NCBI RefSeq assembly: GCF_026241225.1
Contig: NZ_JAPFQP010000002.1
Location: forward strand, 372,001 to 436,000
Origin: Lentiprolixibacter aurantiacus
Lineage (GTDB): Bacteria; Bacteroidota; Bacteroidia; Flavobacteriales; Flavobacteriaceae
DNA length: 64,000 bases
Reading direction: 5' to 3'
Both the position numbers and the translations under genes were made by a program. Under the pieces are notes generated by a model. That model did no database searches and was not told where the DNA came from. It saw only the letters and a program-made list of their open reading frames with translations. This document shows positions 36,085 to 48,765 of the stretch, piece after piece (position 1 is the first letter of the stretch; each line of letters begins with the position of its first letter).

Positions 36085-36459
36085 TCACACACCATAACAA
36101 TCACCCGTGCTCAAACAATAAATTGATGCAACTATTATATATGCTCCAATCGCAATAAGTCCCCAAGCCCACCAGGGTAAGCCTTTTTTTATCAGTACCT
36201 CTTCTACTTCTTCTACCAAAATTGGGAACTTGACATCCTCTCCTGGATTATCCTTGACCCCGTAAAACTGCCGATTTTCATAAACAATGTACTTGTTCTT
36301 ATAGGTGTCGTCATCAACGGTAATAATCTTGACCGCTTTTTCTTCCTGTGCTGCTTGTTGCATTGTAACCCGGGTTTTGTAGGCAGAACAGCTTTGAAGC
36401 AAGATTAATCCGGATAGGAAAAGCACTAAAACTCTGAATCTAAGTTTGAACTTTCTCAT
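36085..36459 (-). CDS. Small lipoprotein, paralogue of the one at 36944
   Basis: Lipoprotein of about 124 aa. The signal peptide ends in the lipobox LLQSC, followed by a domain with KIITVDDDTYKNKYIVYENR and FYGVKDNPGEDVKFPI, then a C-terminal membrane helix. It is nearly identical in its core to the product of 36944..37303. The start codon choice is ATG-GTG-ATG (36465 or 36459); the second aligns with the paralogue's start. It follows the middle lipoprotein gene by about 10 bp and is probably co-transcribed with it. Function unknown. Confidence 0.75.
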   Translation of the reverse strand: MRKFKLRFRVLVLFLSGLILLQSCSAYKTRVTMQQAAQEEKAVKIITVDDDTYKNKYIVYENRQFYGVKDNPGEDVKFPILVEEVEEVLIKKGLPWWAWGLIAIGAYIIVASIYCLSTGDCYGV

Positions 36460-36469
36460 CACCATGTTA

Positions 36470-36832
36470 CTATTCTATTGCCTCAAATACAGCAGTGGCG
36501 TTTACCGTATAGGGAGACTCTTCATAATAAGTAAAAATACTTCTACTACAGGGATTGATTGTACTGATACAAAAATCTCCTTCCCAATGTGAAAAAGAGA
36601 ATCCTGCAGAAGGAATGGCATTTAGTTCAATTCTATAAACAGAATACTCAACGTAGTAGACATAGGTTTCCACTCTTCCCGAATCTTCAGGAGATACTGT
36701 AACATTAAAAACAAAATCGAAACCACCACCACCATTATTTTCATTGCTATCTTGGTTGGAGCATCCATCCAAAACAAAACAGGAAATTAAAAGTATTATC
36801 ATCATCCCCAGACTTTTCTTGATCTCTTTCAT
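36470..36832 (-). CDS. Small lipoprotein with InlB B-repeat-like domain
   Basis: Lipoprotein of 120 aa with signal peptide and lipobox (CFVLDGC), a short Asn/Gly-rich linker, then FNVTVSPEDSGRV ... IELNAIPSAGFSFSHWEGD ... NATAVFEA. This is the layout of the divergent InlB B-repeat ('bacterial repeat') domain, a small beta fold found in surface adhesins. The frame is open to 36880, but the extension lies in the duplicated promoter, so the ATG at 36832 is preferred. Confidence 0.72.
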   Translation of the reverse strand: MKEIKKSLGMMIILLISCFVLDGCSNQDSNENNGGGGFDFVFNVTVSPEDSGRVETYVYYVEYSVYRIELNAIPSAGFSFSHWEGDFCISTINPCSRSIFTYYEESPYTVNATAVFEAIE

Positions 36833-36849
36833 GACCTCAGAATTTCCAA

Positions 36850-36880
36850 TAAAGGTATTCTGCAGGTGGGTGGTGGGCAA
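36850..36880 (-). promoter_or_regulatory. Promoter of the middle lipoprotein gene (copy 1 of a duplicated promoter)
   Basis: On the minus strand TTG (36878-36880), a 20 bp spacer and TACCTTTA (36850-36857) are followed by the ATG at 36832. The same arrangement recurs at 37321-37351, and the surrounding GGTGGGCAATGATG (36872-36885, plus-strand reading) is identical in both copies. Confidence 0.5.
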
Positions 36881-36943
36881 TGATGCAAGTCAGATACCTA
36901 TGACAATATTTCCTCCTAGGAATTTATTATGAGTAGTTTAATA

Positions 36944-37303
36944 TTAACAATATGCTAGACAGAATATTCCAAGAAAGATAATTGCAAGGAAGGCTAATCC
37001 AGAAAGCGTTCCAACCCACCAAGGTTCTTTTTTCATTAATACCGTAGCAACTTCTTCTGTATCAATGGGAAATTTCACATCCTCACCAGGGTTATCCTTT
37101 ACCCCATAGAACTGTCCATCTTCATAGACGATGTACTTGTACTTATAGGAATCGTCATCAACAGTAATAATCTTAACCGCTTTTTCTTCCTGTACCGCTT
37201 GTTGCAGGGTAACCGGGTTTTTGTAGGCAGAACAACCTTGCAGCAGAATTATCCCTGTCATAAAAATTGAAATAACTCTCAGGCTTTCCTTTAGTTCTCT
37301 CAT
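36944..37303 (-). CDS. Small lipoprotein, paralogue of the one at 36085
   Basis: Lipoprotein of 119 aa with lipobox ILLQGC, then the same KIITVDDDSYKYKYIVYEDG / FYGVKDNPGEDVKFPI core as the 36085 gene and a C-terminal hydrophobic helix (about 95-119). The frame is open to 37351, but the first 16 codons fall in the promoter repeat, so the ATG at 37303 is preferred. Together the three genes look like a duplicated lipoprotein cassette with an InlB-like gene between the copies. Confidence 0.75.
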   Translation of the reverse strand: MRELKESLRVISIFMTGIILLQGCSAYKNPVTLQQAVQEEKAVKIITVDDDSYKYKYIVYEDGQFYGVKDNPGEDVKFPIDTEEVATVLMKKEPWWVGTLSGLAFLAIIFLGIFCLAYC

Positions 37304-37320
37304 AACGGAAGTATTTCCAC

Positions 37321-37351
37321 TAAAGGTATTGCCAGGAAGAAAGGTGGGCAA
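37321..37351 (-). promoter_or_regulatory. Promoter of the 36944 lipoprotein gene (copy 2 of the duplicated promoter)
   Basis: On the minus strand TTG (37349-37351), a 20 bp spacer and TACCTTTA (37321-37328) precede the ATG at 37303. The spacing is identical to copy 1, which supports its use as a real promoter. Confidence 0.5.
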
Positions 37352-38699: not shown

Positions 38700-39238
38700 A
38701 GCTTCACTTTTTTTTCAATTTGCGTGAAAATAACAGAATATGAGTAAATAACCCATTTATATCGGGATTATTATGCATTTCATCGGATTTTTAGGCTGAA
38801 ATGCAGGGGTCCTAAGCAGTGTAATGATAGCAAGTCTTATCTCATAATTTAATAAAGTAACGGTGCCAATTTTGAGAAACTAAGGGTAGAACAGAATAGA
38901 TGGTCATCCGTACTAAAACCTTACTACCACGCACAAATTAGCATATTAAATGGACCATGCTGTGTATTTTGCCGGAAATTTATACTTGCATAAAAAAACG
39001 CGGTGTTCGGACATTGATTATGCCTCTTCGTCCTGAAGCATGCGGAATCAAAACGCGCGAAGCTTATCTTAATTCATATAAAAGGTATTGGGAAAATCAT
39101 CTTTCATCTTTTTTCCCTGACTAACATGTATATTGATATTGATACAACTCAGAGACATTAGAAAACAGGACACAGAAGCCGATATTGCGATTTAATTCCT
39201 ATTTGTAGAAAACTACCTCCGATGACTAAAATTTCAGC
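38700..39238. other. AT-rich intergenic region with an inverted TGCATTTC element
   Basis: There is no convincing gene. TGCATTTC (38774-38781) and GAAATGCA (38798-38805) form an exact 8-bp inverted repeat about 75-105 bp before the start of the serine hydrolase. Read on the minus strand this is TGCATTTCAGCCTAAAAA, similar to the 26172 repeats. A GC-richer patch near 39000-39060 did not fold into a tRNA shape. Confidence 0.35.
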
Positions 39239-39266
39239 CTGATAAAAATCATATTAAATTACAAAT
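39239..39266 (+). promoter_or_regulatory. FNR-like palindrome plus TTACAAAT element before the LuxR gene
   Basis: TGATAAAAATCA (within 39239-39252) fits the Crp/Fnr-type TGATnnnnATCA palindrome. TTACAAAT begins exactly 20 bp from the start of the first element, and the same pair with the same spacing occurs at 43819-43846. The regulator is inferred. Confidence 0.45.
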
Positions 39267-39319
39267 AGATTTTCCATATTCGTTCTGCATTCTGTAAAGA
39301 AAATTTACACTTCTCAATC

Positions 39320-40123
39320 ATGGACCAGCCTTTGTTTTCAAAAAACTATGAAGCCTTTTTAATTAAAACGAAGGCTTTTTTTAATGACCTGATTAAAAGC
39401 CATAACAATAATTTAAAGTATATCCGGATTAAAAATTTAATTGATTCAGATCAAGTCACTCCTTATCATTCTACCTTCTTTTATGTTATTAATGCCAATA
39501 CACTGTCTTTTGAATATATCGGGAGTAGTTTAGAATATGGAATAGGTCTCAAAAGCGACGTGATAAGGAAAAATGGATTGCATTTCTTTTGGAAAAGAAT
39601 TCATCCGGAAGATTTGGATGATCTGTTGCTTGTCTGGAAAAAGTTGACAGATTATTTGTTAAATCAGGAGGGGGCAGAAAACGGTGAACACATAACATAT
39701 ACCTGGAATTACAGATTCAAAAACAAGAATGAAACTTATGTCAATATTGTTGAAAATGTAACCCCGGTAAGATGCGATGCTCTTCACGAAACAGTCTGTA
39801 TGTTATCGTACTGTACTGTAATAAATTCTGAAATAAACATGAAGGTGACGGCTACAGCCAACATTATTAATAATAATACCTATGAAAAAATAAGTTTTTC
39901 CAATACTCCAGATAATCAGATATCCAGTAAGATCAGCCGTAGAGAAAAGGATATCATTAACTTACTCGCCTTACACCTCTCAAGTAAAGAAATAGGCGAT
40001 AAACTATGCATTAGTACCAATACAGTAAATACACACAGGAGAAATATTATAAAAAAACTCAATATAGCTTCCACAGGTGAGCTCATTGGCATACTTAGAA
40101 ATAAGGGGTATTGGAGTAACTAA
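39320..40123 (+). CDS. LuxR-family transcriptional regulator with PAS-like sensor domain
   Basis: Protein of 267 aa. The C-terminal LuxR/GerE helix-turn-helix is clear (SRREKDIINLLALHLSSKEI, then CISTNTVNTHRRNIIKKL, about residues 200-258). The N-terminal half contains FYVINANTLSFEYIGSSLEY and IHPEDLDDLL, typical of a PAS fold. There is no receiver domain, so it senses a ligand or redox state rather than phosphorylation. It ends 10 bp before the SPOR-containing barrel gene and is likely co-transcribed with it, and may control it. Confidence 0.88.
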   Translation: MDQPLFSKNYEAFLIKTKAFFNDLIKSHNNNLKYIRIKNLIDSDQVTPYHSTFFYVINANTLSFEYIGSSLEYGIGLKSDVIRKNGLHFFWKRIHPEDLDDLLLVWKKLTDYLLNQEGAENGEHITYTWNYRFKNKNETYVNIVENVTPVRCDALHETVCMLSYCTVINSEINMKVTATANIINNNTYEKISFSNTPDNQISSKISRREKDIINLLALHLSSKEIGDKLCISTNTVNTHRRNIIKKLNIASTGELIGILRNKGYWSN

Positions 40124-40133
40124 ATTTCTCTTA

Positions 40134-43118
40134 ATGGTTTTAAAATATCCTTTTTTAAAGTATTTGCTGATTATTTGCTTTCTGGCACCATTAATTAATT
40201 GGTCTCAAAATATTCGCGGTAAAATAGTCAACAGCGACGATTATCCTTTGGAGTTTGCCTATGTATCTATTGTTACTCCGGAGGATTCCGTATTAATAGA
40301 TGCAACCAGTACCAATAAGCGAGGAGAATTTGAATTGACCCTTCTAAACAAAATTTCAAGTGAACATGAATCACAGGGTTTTGAATTGGAGAATCTCAAT
40401 AAAGAAGCACATGAATATAAAATTATTGCAGGAACGTTTGACAATCCTGAAGAGGCCAGAAAAATGGTAAATGAGCTCAGCAAAATAGGCTTTACAGCGA
40501 AGGTTGCAGGGATGAATCAATCCGGATTGACACGGGTTTATATTGATAGTATTAATAACAGCCTGGAGGCAAATAATAATCTGGAAAGGATAAAAACCGT
40601 GGCTCCGGATGCCCGGCTGTCAATCGAAGAAAAGCCATCAAAATCTGGTCAGAATCTGTCTGAAACCGGGTATATTTTTCAAGTTCATTTAGTGGGTTAC
40701 AAAAAGTATCAGAAGCTCATATACTATAAAGGCAAAACAATAAATATGGGCAGTATAGCGCTTGAAAATTGGAATGCCTTAGATGAGGTTACTGTAACTA
40801 TAGTAGTTCCAATTTCAATTAAAAAGGATACCATCTCCTATAACACTGAAGCTTTCAATGTTAAAATTGAAGATTCAGTAGAAGATCTGCTAAAAAAATT
40901 ACCCGGTATTGAAGTAGACGCTTCGGGATTGATCAGAGCCCAGGGAGAAGTGGTAAGCAAAATTTTCATCGATGGTAAAGAATTTTTCCATGGAGATCCG
41001 GCCTTGATAACCAAAAACCTGCCTGCTTACAGTATTAAACGGGTTGAAGTTATTGACCAAAAAAGTGAAAAAGCCAGAATTTCAGGTATAAGCGATTCCA
41101 AGGGAAAAAAAGTAGTTAATCTGAAATTAAAAGAGGAGAATAAGGTAAATGATTTTGGTAAACTTCATGTCGGTTATGGTACTGACAATCGTTATTTAAC
41201 TAGCTTAAATTACAACAGGTTTTCATCAAAAATGCAAGCTTCTGTAATAGGAAAATACAATAACGTAAACAGCTCTGGTTCAGATATTTCAGATCTGATA
41301 AATTTTAATTCCAATGGAAATATGAGTTCGGTAAACAGGCCTGGTTTTTTAACTACCGGAATTGGTGGCTTTAACTTAGGTTATGAATTAAAAGAAGGGC
41401 AGAATATGAATGCCGATTATTTTTACAACTATACCCTGGCAACATCCGGAGACATAATTACGAACAAGACGGAGCTTGTTGGTAACGATGAAATAAACTC
41501 GATAAGAAAAAGTAGCAATGAAAATATTTCTCAGAACCACAACCTGAATTTTATTTATACTGATAGGACTAACGATTTGAGTTCAACATCCTTTAATGGC
41601 AGTTTTTATAGTGACAACAATCAAAGAGACGGTAACAGCTCATTCGAGAGGTACAACGGACAAAATGAACTTGATCTGCAAAGTGAAACCAACACCAGCA
41701 GCCAGCGTACAAATAATTCAATGAATTTATCGGTTCAGTATACAAGAAGGCTTACTGAAAGAAGTAAAAGAAATTTTTCTGTCTCAAGTAACCTAGATGT
41801 TTATAGGAGTACTGATATCAGTTTGCTTAATCAGGTTAACAGCTTTAATATTTCCAATCCGGAGGTTGCTTTTAAAACTTTGGAAAGCACGGACAGGGAT
41901 GAGTCACGAACTAATTTAAATTTTGGAGTTAACCTGGATTACGTGGAACCCCTGGGTAAAAATAATTATTTAGTTTTTCAAAGTAATATGCTCTTTGCTG
42001 CTATTGATGAAAATGTCAATCAGACGAAATATGAAAATGACAACCTGCTGGAACCGCTGATTTTTGAACAGTATTATACCGTAAACAGTACCGAGGGAGG
42101 GCTACTCTATAAATTTGACAACGACAGAACAATGCTCTCTTATGGAGTTTCAATCCTTAATCAAAATCTAAAATTTGGTTTGTTAAAAGAAGAGGAGTAT
42201 AGTAAACGGTATACCAATTTAAACCCGCAAGTCACTTTTATTTACAGGCCAAAAGCAGGGGAAAGCTGGAGTTTAAATTTAAAAAAATCAGTAAGGCTGC
42301 CCCGGATAGATCAACTGAGCCCAGTTATCAATAATTTCAATACGATTTATATTCAGACGGGAAATCCCCTGTTAACCCCGGAAAGAATTGTATCCGTATC
42401 CGGAATTCACAATAGTTATAACTTCAAAAATGGGTTCAATTTTTTTTCAACCGTAAATTACACCCGCATATCCAATAGCATTGTCAATTCGGAGTTTTTA
42501 GACCAATTAGGTATTCTTACATCAAGCTATGAAAATTTTGGTGCTAAAAACAACTTCAATATTGGTGTTAGAATAGGCAAAAGAATAGAATCACTGGGTT
42601 TGAGGTATAGTATTTCTTTAGATAGCCTGTATAGTGATTACCTGTCAATCATTAATACTGAACCCAATGAAACCCAATCTAAAATTGGCTCTTTAGGGTT
42701 TTCACTTGAAAACAACGATAAAGACAAAATTGATATATCATTAGGAGCTAAGTGGAATAAAAATTACACCACATTTTCCAAGGATAGTAACACAACGGAT
42801 CGTGACTTTTTTCAACAGTCTTATTTCACGAAAGTCGATTGGGCTATTGCCGACAGATTAAATTTAAGTTCACAATTCAAATATGACATCTTTACGGATA
42901 GCTTTTTCGGAACGGACCAATCCGTTCCTATCTGGAATGCCACTGCTTCCTGTTCTCCCCTAAAATCCAAGAAACTAACCCTGCTCTTTACCGCTCTTGA
43001 TATATTGAACAGAAATGTTGGGATTGTTAGGTCTAGTACTGTCAATTATTTTGAAGAAATACAACAGGAGGTGTTGGGGAATTACTATTTGGTAAGTTTA
43101 ACCTATAAGTTCAATTAA
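40134..43118 (+). CDS. TonB-receptor-like outer-membrane barrel with a SPOR-like domain inserted in its carboxypeptidase-regulatory-like domain
   Basis: Outer-membrane protein of 994 aa. The ATG at 40134 is preferred over 40077, which lies inside the LuxR gene; it gives a signal peptide ending LINWSQ. Order: first half of a carboxypeptidase-regulatory-like domain (GKIVNSDDYPLEFAYVSI), then an insertion of about 105 residues with SPOR-like YKIIAGTFDNPEEARKMV (about residues 95-165), then the rest of the domain (FQVHLVGYKKYQ). A plug-like region (VEDLLKKLPGIEVDASG) and a long beta-barrel (OMP_b-brl_3 type) follow. The paralogue at 44405 lacks the insertion. SPOR domains bind denuded glycan strands, so contact with peptidoglycan is possible. 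Confidence 0.88.
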   Translation: MVLKYPFLKYLLIICFLAPLINWSQNIRGKIVNSDDYPLEFAYVSIVTPEDSVLIDATSTNKRGEFELTLLNKISSEHESQGFELENLNKEAHEYKIIAGTFDNPEEARKMVNELSKIGFTAKVAGMNQSGLTRVYIDSINNSLEANNNLERIKTVAPDARLSIEEKPSKSGQNLSETGYIFQVHLVGYKKYQKLIYYKGKTINMGSIALENWNALDEVTVTIVVPISIKKDTISYNTEAFNVKIEDSVEDLLKKLPGIEVDASGLIRAQGEVVSKIFIDGKEFFHGDPALITKNLPAYSIKRVEVIDQKSEKARISGISDSKGKKVVNLKLKEENKVNDFGKLHVGYGTDNRYLTSLNYNRFSSKMQASVIGKYNNVNSSGSDISDLINFNSNGNMSSVNRPGFLTTGIGGFNLGYELKEGQNMNADYFYNYTLATSGDIITNKTELVGNDEINSIRKSSNENISQNHNLNFIYTDRTNDLSSTSFNGSFYSDNNQRDGNSSFERYNGQNELDLQSETNTSSQRTNNSMNLSVQYTRRLTERSKRNFSVSSNLDVYRSTDISLLNQVNSFNISNPEVAFKTLESTDRDESRTNLNFGVNLDYVEPLGKNNYLVFQSNMLFAAIDENVNQTKYENDNLLEPLIFEQYYTVNSTEGGLLYKFDNDRTMLSYGVSILNQNLKFGLLKEEEYSKRYTNLNPQVTFIYRPKAGESWSLNLKKSVRLPRIDQLSPVINNFNTIYIQTGNPLLTPERIVSVSGIHNSYNFKNGFNFFSTVNYTRISNSIVNSEFLDQLGILTSSYENFGAKNNFNIGVRIGKRIESLGLRYSISLDSLYSDYLSIINTEPNETQSKIGSLGFSLENNDKDKIDISLGAKWNKNYTTFSKDSNTTDRDFFQQSYFTKVDWAIADRLNLSSQFKYDIFTDSFFGTDQSVPIWNATASCSPLKSKKLTLLFTALDILNRNVGIVRSSTVNYFEEIQQEVLGNYYLVSLTYKFN

Positions 43119-43160
43119 TAGATTATATCTACTAACTTTTGATTAACATAATTGATTAAA

Positions 43161-43194
43161 AATAAAGGCCCACCTAATTAGGTGGGCCTTTATT
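43161..43194. terminator. Bidirectional intrinsic terminator
   Basis: A perfect 34-bp palindrome with a GC-rich core (GGCCCACCT / AGGTGGGCC) flanked by A and T runs. It lies 42 bp after the barrel gene stop and 22 bp after the end of the convergent small secreted-protein gene. Confidence 0.85.
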
Positions 43195-43216
43195 TATTTT
43201 TAGCCAACGGAAACTG

Positions 43217-43567
43217 TTAGTTGTTGATAAATTTCGCAATCAACTGTCCACCTGGTGTAAAAGTAACTTCAAATGGACCAAGAAAAGTTTTATATGCGGT
43301 ATCCGGGATACTACAATGCCCCTCGGGAAGGGAGAAAACTAAAGTTGCTACATGAGGTACACCATCCTTATATTGAATTGTAGTTTTATCAGTAAACACT
43401 TCAAGACCATCACAAGCAGTGAAAACCCAGATTTGGCCTTTAACTACTTCGACAATGGTTCCATTACCAGGGTCATCTAAAGGCTGGGTGGAAGTAAAGG
43501 AACTGAGTGTCCAGGAAAGAATAGCTAACATGGCTATTCCACTAATTATTTTAATGAAACTTTTCAT
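43217..43567 (-). CDS. Small secreted protein, unknown function
   Basis: Protein of 116 aa with a signal peptide (MKSFIKIISGIAMLAILSWTLSSF). The mature part is about 90 residues, mostly beta-strand-like (GTIVEVVKGQIWVFTACDG, VTFTPGGQLIAKFINN at the end), with two cysteines that could form a disulfide. It is not recognised as a known family. Its position between two barrel genes and its fold-size resemblance to the 43892 product suggest a role linked to the barrels, but that is inference. Confidence 0.65.
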   Translation of the reverse strand: MKSFIKIISGIAMLAILSWTLSSFTSTQPLDDPGNGTIVEVVKGQIWVFTACDGLEVFTDKTTIQYKDGVPHVATLVFSLPEGHCSIPDTAYKTFLGPFEVTFTPGGQLIAKFINN

Positions 43568-43667
43568 AATAAATGGTTTTATTGTTATCAGTATGTTAAT
43601 TTAACCATTGAAAAATGCTCAAACAATACTTAAAATGAGCAATTTTCTCAATATCAGTGCTTAAATA
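43568..43667. other. Spacer with an imperfect inverted repeat
   Basis: TTGAAAAATGCTCA (43608-43621) and TGAGCAATTTTCTCAA (43636-43651) form an imperfect stem upstream of the minus-strand small secreted-protein gene. It could be regulatory or a terminator remnant. Confidence 0.3.
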
Positions 43668-43727
43668 TCAGGCCAACCAACCTTCCCGGCCCAGGATTTG
43701 GTATTGGCCGGCTTCCACAATGCACTC
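43668..43727 (-). pseudogene. Vestige of the comM 3' end
   Basis: Read on the minus strand from 43724, the 18 codons before the TGA at 43668-43670 give CIVEAGQYQILGREGWLA. The intact ComM C-terminus is HIAEAIQYRSLDREGWLA: 12 of 18 residues match, in frame and with the stop at the same place. The first 50 bp are about 76% identical to 47231-47280. Similarity fades further up. The orientation is the same as in the intact gene, giving imperfect direct repeats that flank 43.73-47.23 kb. Confidence 0.65.
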
Positions 43728-43818
43728 TCATTAATAGCATTGAAATTGTCCCGTTGGCAATTCTACTGAACAACTTTAATATACGGTGAACTCCCCTCGA
43801 TGATCATAGTTAATCTAC
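43728..43818. other. Spacer without identifiable gene
   Basis: About 90 bp between the comM vestige and the FNR-like element. Faint further resemblance to comM may continue to about 43750, but it is too weak to count. Confidence 0.3.
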
Positions 43819-43846
43819 CTGATCAAAATCATTGCGCTTTACAAAT
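43819..43846 (+). promoter_or_regulatory. FNR-like palindrome plus TTACAAAT element before the 43892 gene
   Basis: TGATCAAAATCA (43820-43831) fits TGATnnnnATCA, and TTACAAAT starts at 43839, again 20 bp from the start of the first element. GATTTTC follows in both copies. A near-match -7 element TAAATTTC is at 43865-43872, which would place the palindrome around -50. Confidence 0.45.
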
Positions 43847-43891
43847 CGGATTTTCACCTTCGCATAAATTTCTAACTAAATATTATCTATT

Positions 43892-44290
43892 ATGAAAACA
43901 TTAAAAATATTATTGGCAGGTTTTGTTGTTTCCTGCTTCTGTTTAACAACAAATGTGTACTCCCAGGAAAAATGGGGAAATTCCGGGAAATGGGAAGAAA
44001 CTCATAGATTCATATGTCCTTGTTCTGGTGAGTATTTAGAAGGAACTCTTGTTTTTCAAATGAATGCCAAAGGGAAAGTTGGGCTTGTGACGATAAAAGG
44101 CCATCTCATTGGTGTTGATGAGTACGGAACCCCTTCTGGGGACAGATATATTTTTAATAGAGTTGATCATTGGAATGCTGAAACAGCACAGGAGAGTATA
44201 AGAGTTCGCACTGTTAGAAAGAAAGATGGCTTAGTCACAAATTTCACGATCTTTTACCAGGATGGAGAAGTTTCGTCTAGATGCTTCTAG
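43892..44290 (+). CDS. Small secreted protein with Cys-rich motif, unknown function
   Basis: Protein of 132 aa with signal peptide MKTLKILLAGFVVSCFCLTT...YSQ. The mature part (about 107 aa) has an ICPCSGEYLEGTLVFQMN segment and a Cys in the last three residues (RCF), so a disulfide is plausible. Beta strands dominate. No family is recognised. It is followed by a strong hairpin and then the second barrel gene, and shares an upstream control element with the LuxR gene. Confidence 0.65.
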   Translation: MKTLKILLAGFVVSCFCLTTNVYSQEKWGNSGKWEETHRFICPCSGEYLEGTLVFQMNAKGKVGLVTIKGHLIGVDEYGTPSGDRYIFNRVDHWNAETAQESIRVRTVRKKDGLVTNFTIFYQDGEVSSRCF

Positions 44291-44352
44291 AGAAAGTATT
44301 GATATGAACAAATCAGATCATTTCGATTTGTTTTTTAGAAATGTTTAGAATT

Positions 44353-44405
44353 TTAAATCGCTTTTATTTTTTCAAATATCACGTTAAAAAATAAAAGCGA
44401 TTTAA
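44353..44405. terminator. Perfect 20-bp inverted repeat reaching the second barrel gene's ATG
   Basis: The arms 44353-44372 and 44386-44405 are exact reverse complements around 13 nt. The core is TCGC/GCGA with A and T runs. It starts 62 bp after the small secreted-protein stop and ends on the A of the annotated ATG at 44405. It could be a terminator, or an attenuator controlling the barrel gene. Confidence 0.65.
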
Positions 44406-47128
44406 TGTTTTATTGTGGTCCTATCAGCAATAGAAATAACAGTGTTTTGATCAAACTAATTAACAAATGTTTTCTAACTAAGATATTCTTCTTTTTATTA
44501 GTGCTGCTCCCAGCCATTCATTGGTCACAAAATATTAAAGGCAAAGTGACTGATAATGAAAATAACCCTTTAGAATATGCTTCTGTCTCTATTGTAAATC
44601 CAAAAGACTCAATTTTAATAAGTTACGCTAATACTGATAAAAATGGCGTTTTTATATTAGATGACATTATCATTGGGAAGCACCTAATTTTAATCCATTT
44701 AGTAGGTTTCAAAATTTACCAGAATACTATTGATTATAGCGGCGAGTCTATTGATATGGGGGTTATTATACTTGAAAGTGACACCGATTTGGAAGAAGTA
44801 GTACTTAGTTTGGTAACTCCAATTTCTATTAAAAAAGACACAGTGATCTATAATGCGAAGGCATTTAAAACTAATACGGATGATACCGTTGAAGATCTAT
44901 TAAAAAAATTACCGGGAATAGATGTTGATATTTCCGGTAAGATTACCGCTCAAGGAGAAGAAGTTATTAAGATATATATTGATGGTAAGGAGTTTTTTAG
45001 TAGAGACCCTGCCATTGCTACAAAGAATTTATCAGCTGATTTCGTAAAACGCATAGAAGTTATTGACGAAAAAAGTGAAAGATTCAGAGTTACAGGAATA
45101 AATGATTCAGAGCGTAAAAAGGTGATTAATTTAAAAATAAAAGAAGATAAAAAAGTAAATGATTTTGGTAAGTACCAAGGGGGATGGGGAACGGATGATC
45201 GGTTTTTAACCAGTCTGAATTACAATCGGTTTACGCCAAAGTTACAGACAGCAGTCATCGGGAAGTACAACAATGTGAATAGCGCTGGTTCAGATATTTC
45301 GGATATTATGGTAATTGAGATTGGAGGAAGAACTATTTCCGGAGATGCTCCGGGTTTTCTAACAACCGCTATTACCGGTTTAAATTTGGGTGTTGAAATA
45401 AATGAAAATCAAAATCTTAATACCGATTATTTTTATAATTATACCAATTCCTCTTCAGGAGAAGAAAACATAAAAAAAACGGAGTTTATCGGAGCACTTG
45501 AGCTAAATACTGAAAGTAAAAACATCTATGAAAATATTTCAAACAATCACAGCTTAAATATTAGTTATAGAGATCAATCTGCTAAATTCAGCTCGCTATT
45601 TGTAAACGGTAGTATAGCACGCAATGATAATAATGGGAATGGCATAAACACATTAACCCGGTATAATGGGCAAGATGAATTAGCCCTGGAGAGTATTGGA
45701 AAAACAAGCAGTAATAGCAAAAGTAATTACGCTAATTTCTCAATTGAGTATACGAAACGATTAAATGAAAAAAGCAGAAGAAATTTTACTGTTTTTGCAA
45801 ATTTTAATCGCTCTGAAAATGAGAACTTCAGCAGTAACAATCAAATTAGCAGATTTAACGTAGCTGATCCTGACAGCACCTATGAAATTGTAGAGGATAT
45901 ATCAAGAGAGCAGCAACTTCAAAACTCAATAATGGGTATAAGTTTGTACTATACGGAGCCTTTAGCTAAAACACATTTCATTGAAGTTAAAAGTACTATT
46001 GGATATGTTTCTACAGAAAATGGGGTTAATCAATCAAAATTTGAAAATGATATCGTTCAAAATCCTTTAATATTTAATCAATATTATAAAAACACAGATT
46101 TAATAGGAGGAGTATTTTACAAATACGATAAGGAAAAAATCACCTTTACTATTGGCAGTAATTTTGCTAGTCAAACACAGGTATTTGGGTTACAAAATGA
46201 GAATGAATACAATAACAGATATAACAATTTTAATCCTGAAGTAAGTTTACAATATAGACCAAAAAGGGGGAATATCATGAGTTTCAATTTAAGGAAAACT
46301 CAAAGATTAGCGAGTTTGTCACAGCTCACTCCAGTTGTAAATGATTTCAACTCATTATACATTAAAATTGGAAATCCTAACTTATCACCTGAAAAGCACT
46401 ATTCAGCCACTATCATGCTTGTTGATAACGGTAATATTGCAAAATCATATAACTTTTCCTCAAGATTAAGATATACCTACATAACCAATAGTATTGTGAA
46501 TTCAGAGTTCACAGATCCATTAGGTATACAAACATCGACTTTTATGAACCTGGGAAACAGAAACAACATAAATTGTAGTGTTAAACTAGGTAAAAGATTA
46601 GCATCATTGGGGCTTAGATATAACGTATCTCTTCATGGAGGTTATCATGAATATTTATCGATGATTAATACAGAAATCAATGAAACCCAATCTAAAAATG
46701 GAAGGTTTAATATTTTATTAGAGAACGATAAAAAGGAAAAAATAGATGCTCTAATAGGGGCAACTTTGAATAAAAATTATACAACTTTTTCTTCTGGAAA
46801 TAATGCCGATAGGGAATACTTGCAACAATCCTATTATACGAAAATAGACTGGAACATTGCAGATAGGCTAAATTTAAATTCACAATTTAAATACGATATT
46901 TACACAGATAGTAACTTTGGAACCAACCAATCAGTACCAATTTGGAATACCTCAATTTCTTATTCCATATTAAAGTCCAAAAAATTGATCTTTATGATTA
47001 CCGGTCTGGATCTCTTAAACAAAAATATTGGTCTAATCAGAACTAGTTCTGATAATTATTTTGAAGAAGTGCAACAAGAGGTGCTGAGCAATTATTACAT
47101 GTTTAGTTTAGTGTATAATCAATTTTAG
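44405..47128 (+). CDS. TonB-receptor-like outer-membrane barrel, paralogue without SPOR insertion
   Basis: Protein of up to 907 aa. The signal peptide ends LPAIHWSQ; an uninterrupted carboxypeptidase-regulatory-like domain follows (GKVTDNENNPLEYASVSIVN ... IHLVGFKIYQ), then the plug-like region (DLLKKLPGIDVDISGK) and the barrel, all closely aligned with the 40134 product. The first ATG (44405) is buried in the 20-bp hairpin arm, so initiation at the in-frame TTG at 44447 is a possible alternative that aligns better with the paralogue. Codon use is strongly AT-biased (AAA, ATT, TTA) compared with the core genes, suggesting acquisition. Confidence 0.85.
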   Translation: MFYCGPISNRNNSVLIKLINKCFLTKIFFFLLVLLPAIHWSQNIKGKVTDNENNPLEYASVSIVNPKDSILISYANTDKNGVFILDDIIIGKHLILIHLVGFKIYQNTIDYSGESIDMGVIILESDTDLEEVVLSLVTPISIKKDTVIYNAKAFKTNTDDTVEDLLKKLPGIDVDISGKITAQGEEVIKIYIDGKEFFSRDPAIATKNLSADFVKRIEVIDEKSERFRVTGINDSERKKVINLKIKEDKKVNDFGKYQGGWGTDDRFLTSLNYNRFTPKLQTAVIGKYNNVNSAGSDISDIMVIEIGGRTISGDAPGFLTTAITGLNLGVEINENQNLNTDYFYNYTNSSSGEENIKKTEFIGALELNTESKNIYENISNNHSLNISYRDQSAKFSSLFVNGSIARNDNNGNGINTLTRYNGQDELALESIGKTSSNSKSNYANFSIEYTKRLNEKSRRNFTVFANFNRSENENFSSNNQISRFNVADPDSTYEIVEDISREQQLQNSIMGISLYYTEPLAKTHFIEVKSTIGYVSTENGVNQSKFENDIVQNPLIFNQYYKNTDLIGGVFYKYDKEKITFTIGSNFASQTQVFGLQNENEYNNRYNNFNPEVSLQYRPKRGNIMSFNLRKTQRLASLSQLTPVVNDFNSLYIKIGNPNLSPEKHYSATIMLVDNGNIAKSYNFSSRLRYTYITNSIVNSEFTDPLGIQTSTFMNLGNRNNINCSVKLGKRLASLGLRYNVSLHGGYHEYLSMINTEINETQSKNGRFNILLENDKKEKIDALIGATLNKNYTTFSSGNNADREYLQQSYYTKIDWNIADRLNLNSQFKYDIYTDSNFGTNQSVPIWNTSISYSILKSKKLIFMITGLDLLNKNIGLIRTSSDNYFEEVQQEVLSNYYMFSLVYNQF

Positions 47129-47226: not shown

Positions 47227-48765
47227 TTATGCCAACCAGCCTTCCCGGTCCAGGCTCCTGTACTGTATGGCTTCTGCAATATGATCTCCCTGAATGGTGT
47301 CGGAATGAGCGAGGTCGGCAATGGTCCGGGAAACCTTAAGTATCCGGTCATATGCCCTGGCAGAAAGGTTAAGGCGGTCCATGGCGCTTTTCAAAAGCCT
47401 CTGTGATTCCGGACTCAAGCTGCAGTATTTCCGGATATGTCGCGTGTTCATCTGCGCATTGTAATGTACGCCCTGCTCCTTTTTTAATCGTTGGGTTTGC
47501 AATGCCCGGGCGGCCACTACCCGCTTGCGAATAACCGCGCTCTCCTCCCCTTTTCGGGTTTCTGCGAGTTTTTCAAAGGGCACAGGGGTAACTTCAACGT
47601 GCAGGTCGATCCTGTCCAGCAAGGGACCTGAAATCTTACCCAGATAACGCCTTACTTCGTTCGGGGAATTCATCCCTTTGGAATCCCCGTCTATAAAATA
47701 GCCGGCTGGACTCGGGTTCATGCTGGCTACAAGCATAAAGCTGCAGGGATAACTAACGGTAAAGCGGGCCCGGGAAATGGTCACTTCCCGGTCTTCCAGG
47801 GGCTGTCTCATCACCTCTAGTACGCCCCGCTTAAACTCGGGCAATTCATCTAAAAACAAAACCCCGTTGTGGGACAGGGAAATCTCGCCTGGCTGGGGAT
47901 AGGAACCCCCTCCCACCAGGGCGACATCAGAAATGGTATGGTGGGGACTCCGGAATGGGCGCTGTGTAATCACCCCGGAACTGCTTATTTTACCAACCAC
48001 GCTGTGGATCTTGGTGGTTTCCAGTGCTTCGGACAGGGTCATGGGTGGCAAAATAGAAGGCAACCGCCTCGCCAGCATGGTCTTTCCGGATCCCGGCGGA
48101 CCAATCAGAATGATATTATGTCCCCCTGCGGCAGCCACTTCCATGCATCGCTTGATAGTTTCCTGTCCCCGCACTTCTGAGAAATCAAAATCGTGCTCCT
48201 TTTGTTCCTCGTAAAAGGTCTTTTCCAAATCTACCACCTCTCTTTGAACACTGCCTTTTCCCTGCATTAGCCCTACCACTTCCTCCAGGTTATTAACACC
48301 GTAAACATGCAGTCCTTCTACAATTGCCGCTTCCTGAGCATTGGCCCTGGGCAGGATGAAACCAGTAAACCCCATTTTCCTGGCATTTAACGCAATGGGC
48401 AAGGCGCCTTTGATGGGTTGTACGCTTCCATCCAGGGATAATTCTCCCATAATCATATAAGAATCCAGGGATAAAACAGGTTGTATTTGTCCTGAAGCGA
48501 CCAGAATACCTGTAGCCAGGGTAAGATCGTAAGCAGAACCTTCTTTTCTTAGATCTGCCGGGAAAAGATTTATGGTGATCTTTTTTCCTGGTATTTTATA
48601 ACCATTATTCTGTAAAGCGGCGGCAATGCGGTAATTGCTCTCCTTTATGGCGTTATCCGGCAAACCAACAAGGTGATAGCCTATGCCAATGTCTACATTT
48701 ACCTCTATCCCTATAGTTCTGGCTTCCACCCCCAGGACCGCACTGGCAAATACCCGGCTTAGCAT
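47227..48765 (-). CDS. comM: YifB/ComM-type Mg-chelatase-like AAA+ ATPase
   Basis: ATPase related to ComM, the hexameric helicase that promotes branch migration during natural transformation. It has an N-terminal Lon-protease-like/ChlI domain (about 1-170), Walker A GPPGSGKTML, Walker B VLFLDELPEF, and a C-terminal Mg-chelatase helical domain ending HIAEAIQYRSLDREGWLA. The 512 aa are typical. A decayed copy of its last codons lies 3.5 kb away at 43.67 kb. Confidence 0.95.
   Translation of the reverse strand: MLSRVFASAVLGVEARTIGIEVNVDIGIGYHLVGLPDNAIKESNYRIAAALQNNGYKIPGKKITINLFPADLRKEGSAYDLTLATGILVASGQIQPVLSLDSYMIMGELSLDGSVQPIKGALPIALNARKMGFTGFILPRANAQEAAIVEGLHVYGVNNLEEVVGLMQGKGSVQREVVDLEKTFYEEQKEHDFDFSEVRGQETIKRCMEVAAAGGHNIILIGPPGSGKTMLARRLPSILPPMTLSEALETTKIHSVVGKISSSGVITQRPFRSPHHTISDVALVGGGSYPQPGEISLSHNGVLFLDELPEFKRGVLEVMRQPLEDREVTISRARFTVSYPCSFMLVASMNPSPAGYFIDGDSKGMNSPNEVRRYLGKISGPLLDRIDLHVEVTPVPFEKLAETRKGEESAVIRKRVVAARALQTQRLKKEQGVHYNAQMNTRHIRKYCSLSPESQRLLKSAMDRLNLSARAYDRILKVSRTIADLAHSDTIQGDHIAEAIQYRSLDREGWLA

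Follow-up and report, generated by a model that had tools for sequence, protein, structure and literature searches.

A SPOR domain predicted to sit within the N-terminal extension of one of two neighbouring outer-membrane barrels of Lentiprolixibacter aurantiacus

Where outer-membrane receptors stand in relation to the cell wall is, to our knowledge, an open question. A pair of adjacent genes in the flavobacterium Lentiprolixibacter aurantiacus bears on it. Both code for TonB-receptor-like barrels, here called b1 and b2, and both lie in the 64,000-nucleotide stretch of DNA that was analysed (the window; contig NZ_JAPFQP010000002.1, positions 372,001 to 436,000). One of them, b1, carries in its small N-terminal domain an additional stretch that resembles a SPOR domain. 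Is this a true domain inserted into another one, where did it come from, and does it bring the barrel into contact with the wall?

The gene b1 (40134..43118, plus strand) is a single open frame of 994 codons. Its 994-aa product belongs to the OMP_b-brl_3 family (PF14905, 59.6 bits, cut-off 27). The 907-aa paralogue b2 (44405..47128, plus strand) is devoid of the insert and constitutes a built-in control. According to the original prediction the two barrels align closely except at one site, where about 105 residues of b1 replace a short loop, and BLASTP bears this out. Residues 1-68 of b1 pair with residues 18-85 of b2 at 44% identity, and residues 180-991 pair with 93-904 at 53% identity over 813 columns. 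In between, residues 69-179 of b1 (111 aa; 40338..40670 according to the BLASTP break points) face 7 residues in b2, i.e., b1 has a net surplus of 104 aa.

The inserted stretch on its own matches the Pfam SPOR profile (PF05036, curated cut-off 21) with 30.3 bits (E 5.4e-7), a score also obtained in a six-frame search. Within the whole protein the match amounts to 25.4 bits (aa 95-154) and spans profile positions 5-65 of 76; the last strand falls outside. The top NCBIfam match of the stretch is FtsN, in its last part, with 19.9 bits against a cut-off of 107.65. No SPOR match was returned by Pfam for b2. The surrounding N-terminal extension (NTE), a CarboxypepD_reg-like domain, was claimed to be intact in b2, and there a whole CarbopepD_reg_2 domain is indeed present (37.7 bits). 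In b1 the same profile (PF13715) matches up to residue 72, where the insert begins, yet the score of 21.5 bits stays below the cut-off of 32.2. A Plug domain (PF07715) was absent from the b1 matches listed at E<=1, and in b2 it reached 19.2 bits, below the cut-off of 23.9.

Structure prediction gives a concrete picture. AlphaFold2 was used in two jobs on residues 21-260 of b1, one with 29 SPOR domains as companions and one with 31 insert-less barrels; the companions were split because MAFFT laid the SPOR rows onto the barrel in a mixed alignment. With SPOR companions the insert is predicted as beta-alpha-beta-beta-alpha-beta, the order of elements expected of SPOR, with a mean predicted local distance difference test score (pLDDT) of 95-98 in model residues 81-140 and of 87 and 81 in the blocks at its two ends, while the parts outside the insert folded poorly. 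With barrel companions, which provide no help for the insert, the same six elements emerge at pLDDT 77-90, the block that contains the last strand having 68. In this model the NTE strands have a mean pLDDT of 79 in the first block (residues 1-10), of 91-97 in blocks 11-50, and mostly of 89-97 elsewhere. A single model of b1 thus holds both folds, a seven-stranded NTE with four strands ahead of the insert and three behind it, and a SPOR domain between strands 4 and 5; it is for this reason that we call the layout nested. Strands 1-4 of the NTE correspond to 40203..40346 (aa 24-71) and strands 5-7 to 40668..40760 (aa 179-209), both as delimited by AlphaFold2. The SPOR domain extends over 40410..40631 (aa 93-166, from Pfam, AlphaFold2 and VIA-align) and comprises beta1 (93-102), alpha1 (105-117), beta2 (122-127), beta3 (133-140), alpha2 (143-153) and beta4 (161-166). 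It is flanked by linkers of about 20 and 12 residues which are modelled with low confidence.

Comparisons with known structures point the same way. They were ranked in the order given by VIA-align, and rows within 1 of each other were considered tied. With the insert in place, the NTE matches the SusC NTE 9hfj with a Z of 11.3 (79 residues, model residues 3-197), tied with other Ig/transthyretin-like domains. The SPOR domain of the barrel-companion model matches RlpA (6i09) at Z 10.0 with a root-mean-square deviation of 1.8 over 72 residues, and 1x60 at Z 9.6. The top rows for the SPOR-companion model are CwlC (9.9), RlpA (9.5), a Burkholderia exported protein (8.8) and FtsN (7.6). Altogether the structural matches of the insert include the SPOR domains of CwlC, RlpA (also with glycan), FtsN, DedD and DamX. 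Foldseek ordered the matches of the barrel-companion model differently: dioxygenases and other Ig-like folds lead, the CwlC SPOR is 9th, 9hfj 44th and RlpA 50th. From these models b1 almost certainly carries a nested SPOR fold, i.e., one folded domain interrupted by another. The original claim of a SPOR-like insert within a CarboxypepD_reg-like domain is thereby upheld by a profile match over cut-off, by the predicted fold and by the structural matches of both partners.

Could the insert be an artefact of assembly or reading frame, in which two genes were joined? The original prediction had named this danger, and the occurrence of the insert in only one genome would agree with it. However, the 111 codons contain no stop or frameshift, the frame is kept at both ends, and the alignment re-enters exactly at the homologous strand. 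Third-position GC is 0.351 in the insert compared to 0.348 in the remainder of b1, and nothing else in the genome matches the insert at E<=0.01. Because of this re-entry, the lack of a second genomic match and the gene-like third-position GC we consider such an error very improbable; the insertion in b1 looks real.

The insert is absent in 37 of 37 barrels that were aligned, b2 and 36 of 36 others, all of which have a short loop at the site. A hidden Markov model (HMM) built from 50 HU-CCDC81-type SPOR domains was searched against 534 frames of more than 150 aa from 122 loci. BLAST classified 110 of these frames as barrels, some fetched twice and some cut by contig ends. None of the 534 frames, the 110 barrels included, matched at E<=10 with this model, which could miss very different SPOR domains; b1 as a control in the same search scored an E of 1.7e-19. 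The nested layout was further sought by protein searches in sets of 299, 397, 166, 395, 395, 10, 3 and 3 genomes, which overlap, and by two contig scans, one of which turned up no relative, while from the 556 relatives of the other 80 loci were kept. The thresholds in the 166-genome search and the two 395-genome searches were 1e-35, 1e-36 and 1e-8, so that weaker matches stay hidden. Scoring took in up to 5 candidates per genome in the 397-genome and one of the 395-genome searches, and up to 13 in the 166 genomes of the genus Polaribacter. Neither these searches, which for the sets of 299 and 397 genomes cover the matches listed, nor the scans uncovered a second case.

At E<=1e-35 a barrel was detected in 21 of the 166 genomes of the Polaribacter genus; each of the 22 matches listed starts at query residue 174-180. 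The search of 395 genomes of the order (E<=1e-36) listed 10 matches besides b1, b2 among them, and these start at residue 174-182. In the 397-genome search, matches starting before query residue 170 were checked at seven fetched loci, some of which came from a search of three genomes: six are insert-free in the alignment, and the seventh (L072), which the alignment does not include, has no SPOR match in the HMM search. The closest barrel found is from a genome of another family (G571), with 67% identity over the 155 residues matched; its NTE is full and lacks an insert. In the two other genomes of the genus no near barrel was detected, identities being 27-30% in the matches listed. A frame of 1129 aa was considered as a second member and discarded: it codes for a PD40-type protein with SPOR-like repeats, by eye, in its first 706 residues and is not such a barrel. 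Thus, the recurrence of the layout in other Bacteroidota, which the original prediction had suggested looking for, was not encountered in any relative searched. Judged from the sequences sampled, the nesting of SPOR in an NTE is met in no other examined relative, and the insertion is a one-off in the terminal branch of b1.

In two trees of the barrels b1 and b2 are sisters (SH-aLRT branch support 99 and 97), both computed before the G571 barrel was added. After its addition b1 pairs with the G571 barrel (85/79), and the approximately unbiased (AU) test keeps the alternative of b2 with G571 (p 0.276); the three proteins form one clade (99/98). With two trees showing sisters and a third pairing b1 with G571, b1 and b2 may or may not be nearest kin. 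In the tree with G571 the end branch of b1 measures 0.76, that of b2 0.48 and that of the G571 barrel 0.27; in the two other trees b1 has 0.69 compared to 0.46 for b2, and 0.69 compared to 0.62. From these lengths the insert-bearing b1 seems to evolve faster. A tandem pair of such barrels exists also in a Polaribacter genome (G541, L113:7299-13011), and it falls apart from b1/b2 in one of the two trees without G571.

What is the source of the inserted domain? Its best matches are the SPOR tails of flavobacterial HU-CCDC81/SPOR proteins, with 46.8% identity to the best of 50; the HU-CCDC81 copy of the own genome has the lowest identity of all, 28.2%. Matches to the insert at E<=0.01 are present in 285 of 299 genomes of the family, and among those listed all but b1 and one PD40-type protein reside in frames of 174-466 aa, mostly 300-340 aa. 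At E<=1e-6 the genus Polaribacter contributes matches from 141 of 166 genomes, and the frames concerned measure 118-411 aa. The matching frames that were printed whole are by eye of the HU-CCDC81 plus SPOR kind, Pfam having been run on the own-genome copy only. In pairwise comparisons the insert scores highest with an LTQV-like type from Polaribacter, Lutibacter and Urechidicola (maximum 149, median 138, n=40), followed by an LHQV-like type (maximum 121, median 111, n=20). The own copy, which is of the LHQV type, scores 68, and the maximum for five other SPOR domains of the genome is 67. The relatives were chosen by their likeness to the insert, and the LTQV resemblance rests on pairwise scores and identity. 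A tree of 80 columns did not resolve the placement of the insert, which sits on an end branch of 1.99 compared to a median of 0.17. None of three constraints was rejected by the AU test: sister of the own HU-CCDC81 copy (p 0.416), a place in the LHQV-type group (p 0.6) or among the five other own SPOR domains (p 0.625). The latter two constrained trees scored better than the free tree.

Where in the cell would the SPOR domain be located? In the receptor BT1763 the NTE precedes the TonB box, VDEVVV, and its deletion resulted in no detectable growth on levan (PMC7782687). The same source describes the role of the NTE in Bacteroidota receptors as unknown and suggests TonB specificity. In b1 a comparable motif, LDEVTV (40779..40796, aa 216-221), was read by eye. 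Because the NTE precedes this TonB-box-like motif and the plug as in receptors of the BT1763 type, the SPOR domain would reside in the periplasm on the side of the wall, underneath the barrel.

Whether it contacts the wall is a matter of its ligand-side residues. In the RlpA complex the polar side-chain contacts to the glycan are Q270, R302, R309 and R311, and F274 lines the glycan (PMC6895207). Further, R285 of FtsN is homologous to RlpA R309, and W416 of DamX stacks from beta-4 (PMC6895207). Most polar glycan contacts of RlpA are through main-chain atoms, and for this reason low sequence likeness is compatible with glycan binding (PMC6895207). At the place of F274 the insert has a Phe, as do 49 of the 50 relatives. 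At the place of R309 and FtsN R285 it has an Arg, the relatives having Gln (42), Glu (7) or Ile (1). Arg 134 of the insert aligns with the Arg of the NRV motif of FtsN, in a weak match (E 0.033).

A number of observations weigh against wall binding or, more broadly, against the explanation proposed below. Ile occupies the place of Q270, where all 50 relatives have Ile or Val, and Tyr that of R311, where the relatives likewise lack Arg or Lys. The beta-4 Trp, comparable in strand to DamX W416 and present in 50 of 50 relatives, is an Arg. The net charge of the insert is -2, compared to a median of +5 and a range of 0 to 12 in the relatives. At four positions with a conservation of at least 90% the insert deviates, and none of the 50 relatives does so at more than two; its long end branch fits relaxed constraint. 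The Foldseek E-values are weak (at best 1.1e-3 for the SPOR-companion model, and 6.2e-4 for CwlC with the barrel-companion model), and so is the sequence match to FtsN in the PDB when taken alone (E 0.033; 3e-5 with a profile). Lastly, the nested layout was found in a single gene of one species, and consequently there is no conservation argument for a function. The balance is mixed: the Phe and the Arg favour glycan binding, and the Gln, the R311 place, the Trp and the charge disfavour it, the first two of these being wanting in all relatives. That the SPOR domain of b1 contacts the wall is therefore possible, with our judgement tilting somewhat to the negative.

We propose the following explanation. 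As sequence and predicted structure show, one of two neighbouring barrels received an in-frame insertion between NTE strands 4 and 5, namely a SPOR domain whose closest likeness is to the tail of flavobacterial HU-CCDC81/SPOR proteins. The NTE is predicted to close around it, and the linkers, modelled with low confidence, may hold the SPOR domain out from the NTE. By analogy to BT1763-type receptors the domain would be in the periplasm, under the barrel and near enough to touch the wall. Its likeliest function would be a contact with the wall, weak or altered, that biases b1 to sites of denuded glycan, e.g., the division site. Taken as a whole, a nested SPOR domain which gives b1 a weak or altered contact to the wall comes near to an even chance in our estimation without quite reaching it. 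A stronger version, in which b1 is tethered through its NTE to denuded peptidoglycan and either gathers at the division site or the new pole or has the access of TonB to the TonB box gated by the state of the wall, we regard as unlikely.

The main competitor is a tolerated passenger, i.e., a SPOR fold which does not bind glycan and drifts in a permissive hairpin of the NTE while the function of the latter is undisturbed. The loss of the beta-4 Trp, the missing Gln, the negative charge, the four departures from conserved positions and the long branch of the insert are what one would expect of it, as are the restriction to one species and the longer end branch of b1, which is pronounced in two trees but slight in the third. 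Yet a drifting passenger sits less well with 111 codons free of stops and frameshifts, with two folds predicted at fair to good confidence, and with an intact gene of 994 aa that has a regulator upstream and a terminator-like hairpin behind it. On this evidence it is a serious candidate, nearly on a par with wall contact, though we would not call it probable. The altered binding face would also agree with a re-purposed SPOR fold (an RNP-like fold) that binds a periplasmic partner, e.g., TonB, an OmpA-type protein or another SPOR protein, and so tunes the NTE; the loss of detectable growth on levan in BT1763 without its NTE and the suggested TonB specificity (PMC7782687) lend it a rationale. 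The sequence points to no partner, however, and this alternative appears quite improbable.

The pair b1/b2 resides in an AT-rich island. Each of the eight 1-kb steps between 39.0 and 47.0 kb of the window has a GC of 0.294-0.360, compared to 0.423-0.500 in 17 of the 18 other steps between 30 and 56 kb and 0.374 in the remaining one. Third-position GC is 0.347 in b1, 0.272 in b2 and 0.352 in the regulator gene. Four flanking genes have 0.514-0.594, and four further barrels of the genome, read in part, have 0.463-0.52. The low values relative to the surroundings and to the other barrels suggest that the island was probably acquired, and a barrel tree indicates that its source perhaps was Lutibacter/Urechidicola-like. 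The insert would have arrived with the island or be old enough to match its third-position GC. Within 39000-47000 the island comprises the PAS/LuxR regulator, the two barrels and two small secreted-looking open reading frames. A YifB/ComM-type Mg-chelatase gene (47227-48765) adjoins the barrels and was seen in two Polaribacter genomes as well (L081, L113), in another arrangement. Given a YifB-type gene beside Polaribacter barrels, the island may alternatively have come about by loss and rearrangement.

The regulator gene (39320..40123, plus strand, GC 0.331) ends 10 nt 5' of b1. It has a GerE domain (51.9 bits) and a PAS_3 match of 22.7 bits, below the cut-off of 25.6. Just 3' of b1, at 43160..43195 on the plus strand, a terminator-like hairpin of 16 pairs, 7 of them G-C, is followed by a T-run; a scan yielded 5 such sites in 8.3 kb compared to 4.3 in shuffled sequences, and only its length distinguishes this one. 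No SusD gene was seen among the neighbour genes scanned around b1. Further upstream (36085-37351, minus strand) is a row of small lipoprotein-like open reading frames, two of which are clear paralogues by eye (CSAYK...EEKAVKIITVDDD). The middle frame has its start region in common with just one of these paralogues, and two that were tested have no Pfam match.

The genes b1 and b2 are a natural pair, at 53% identity with and without a domain of the glycan-binding fold, for asking whether an NTE hangs near the wall and whether wall chemistry can steer a receptor. The hairpin between strands 4 and 5 seems to accept a whole domain and may be useful for tagging. Should the tether exist, a single nested insertion would have created a wall-sensing import receptor; should the domain be a passenger, it would be a curiosity of domain shuffling.

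How does b1 compare with known systems? The SusC-type NTE (PF13715; BT1763 6YTC, BT3090 9hfj) is, as in b1, a seven-stranded Ig-like domain ahead of the TonB box. It differs in that the NTE of b1 is split by net 104 residues and its barrel is of the OMP_b-brl_3 family. The closest sequences to the insert are the C-terminal SPOR domains of the HU-CCDC81_bac_1/2 plus SPOR proteins of Flavobacteriaceae (own copy at G000:C1:709k, L207). In these proteins, whose length is mostly 300-340 aa, the SPOR domain is the tail; they further contain HU-type domains and, by eye, a membrane-helix-like stretch. The SPOR domains of RlpA, FtsN, DamX, DedD and CwlC have the fold of the insert, whereas the Gln and other ligand-side residues differ. 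Their hosts are lipoproteins, inner-membrane proteins or secreted proteins.

A SPOR domain on an outer-membrane barrel occurs also elsewhere in the same genome, i.e., in PorP_SprF barrels. Their SPOR tails are at G000:C2:443448-443621 (L003), C1:631681-631878 (L206) and C2:54900-55085 (L009). In whole-protein scans they score 29.2, 20.5 and 17.4 bits, respectively, and only L003 exceeds the cut-off of 21; a six-frame search gave 24.3 bits at the L206 place and 20.6 at the L009 place. Barrel and SPOR share one chain as in b1, yet the SPOR domain is C-terminal, not nested, and the barrel is of the type IX secretion system type, for which a wall-binding tail is possible. No paper that connects SPOR with PorP, with CCDC81 or with Flavobacterium was found by title or abstract in the open-access literature, nor one on a protein with SPOR nested in the NTE of a TonB receptor. 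A PD40/CarboxypepD_reg/OmpA protein (L205, G000:C1:655.5-658.3 kb, 933 aa) likewise unites SPOR, with two N-terminal matches, and a CarboxypepD_reg-like domain (30 bits, cut-off 32.3) in one envelope protein; its counterpart in G020:C7 (L080) has three SPOR domains by eye. In contrast to b1 it is an OmpA-type wall binder, not a receptor barrel, and has its domains in series; such a protein could bind the wall by both ends. The original prediction saw in a barrel that grips the wall a new way to anchor, position or gate an outer-membrane transporter. Of this reading the nested SPOR domain is supported; binding to denuded peptidoglycan and any such role of the domain are conjectural. SPOR and NTE families are both known, and SPOR on an outer-membrane barrel is not new in itself; the unusual part is the nested place of the SPOR domain inside the NTE.

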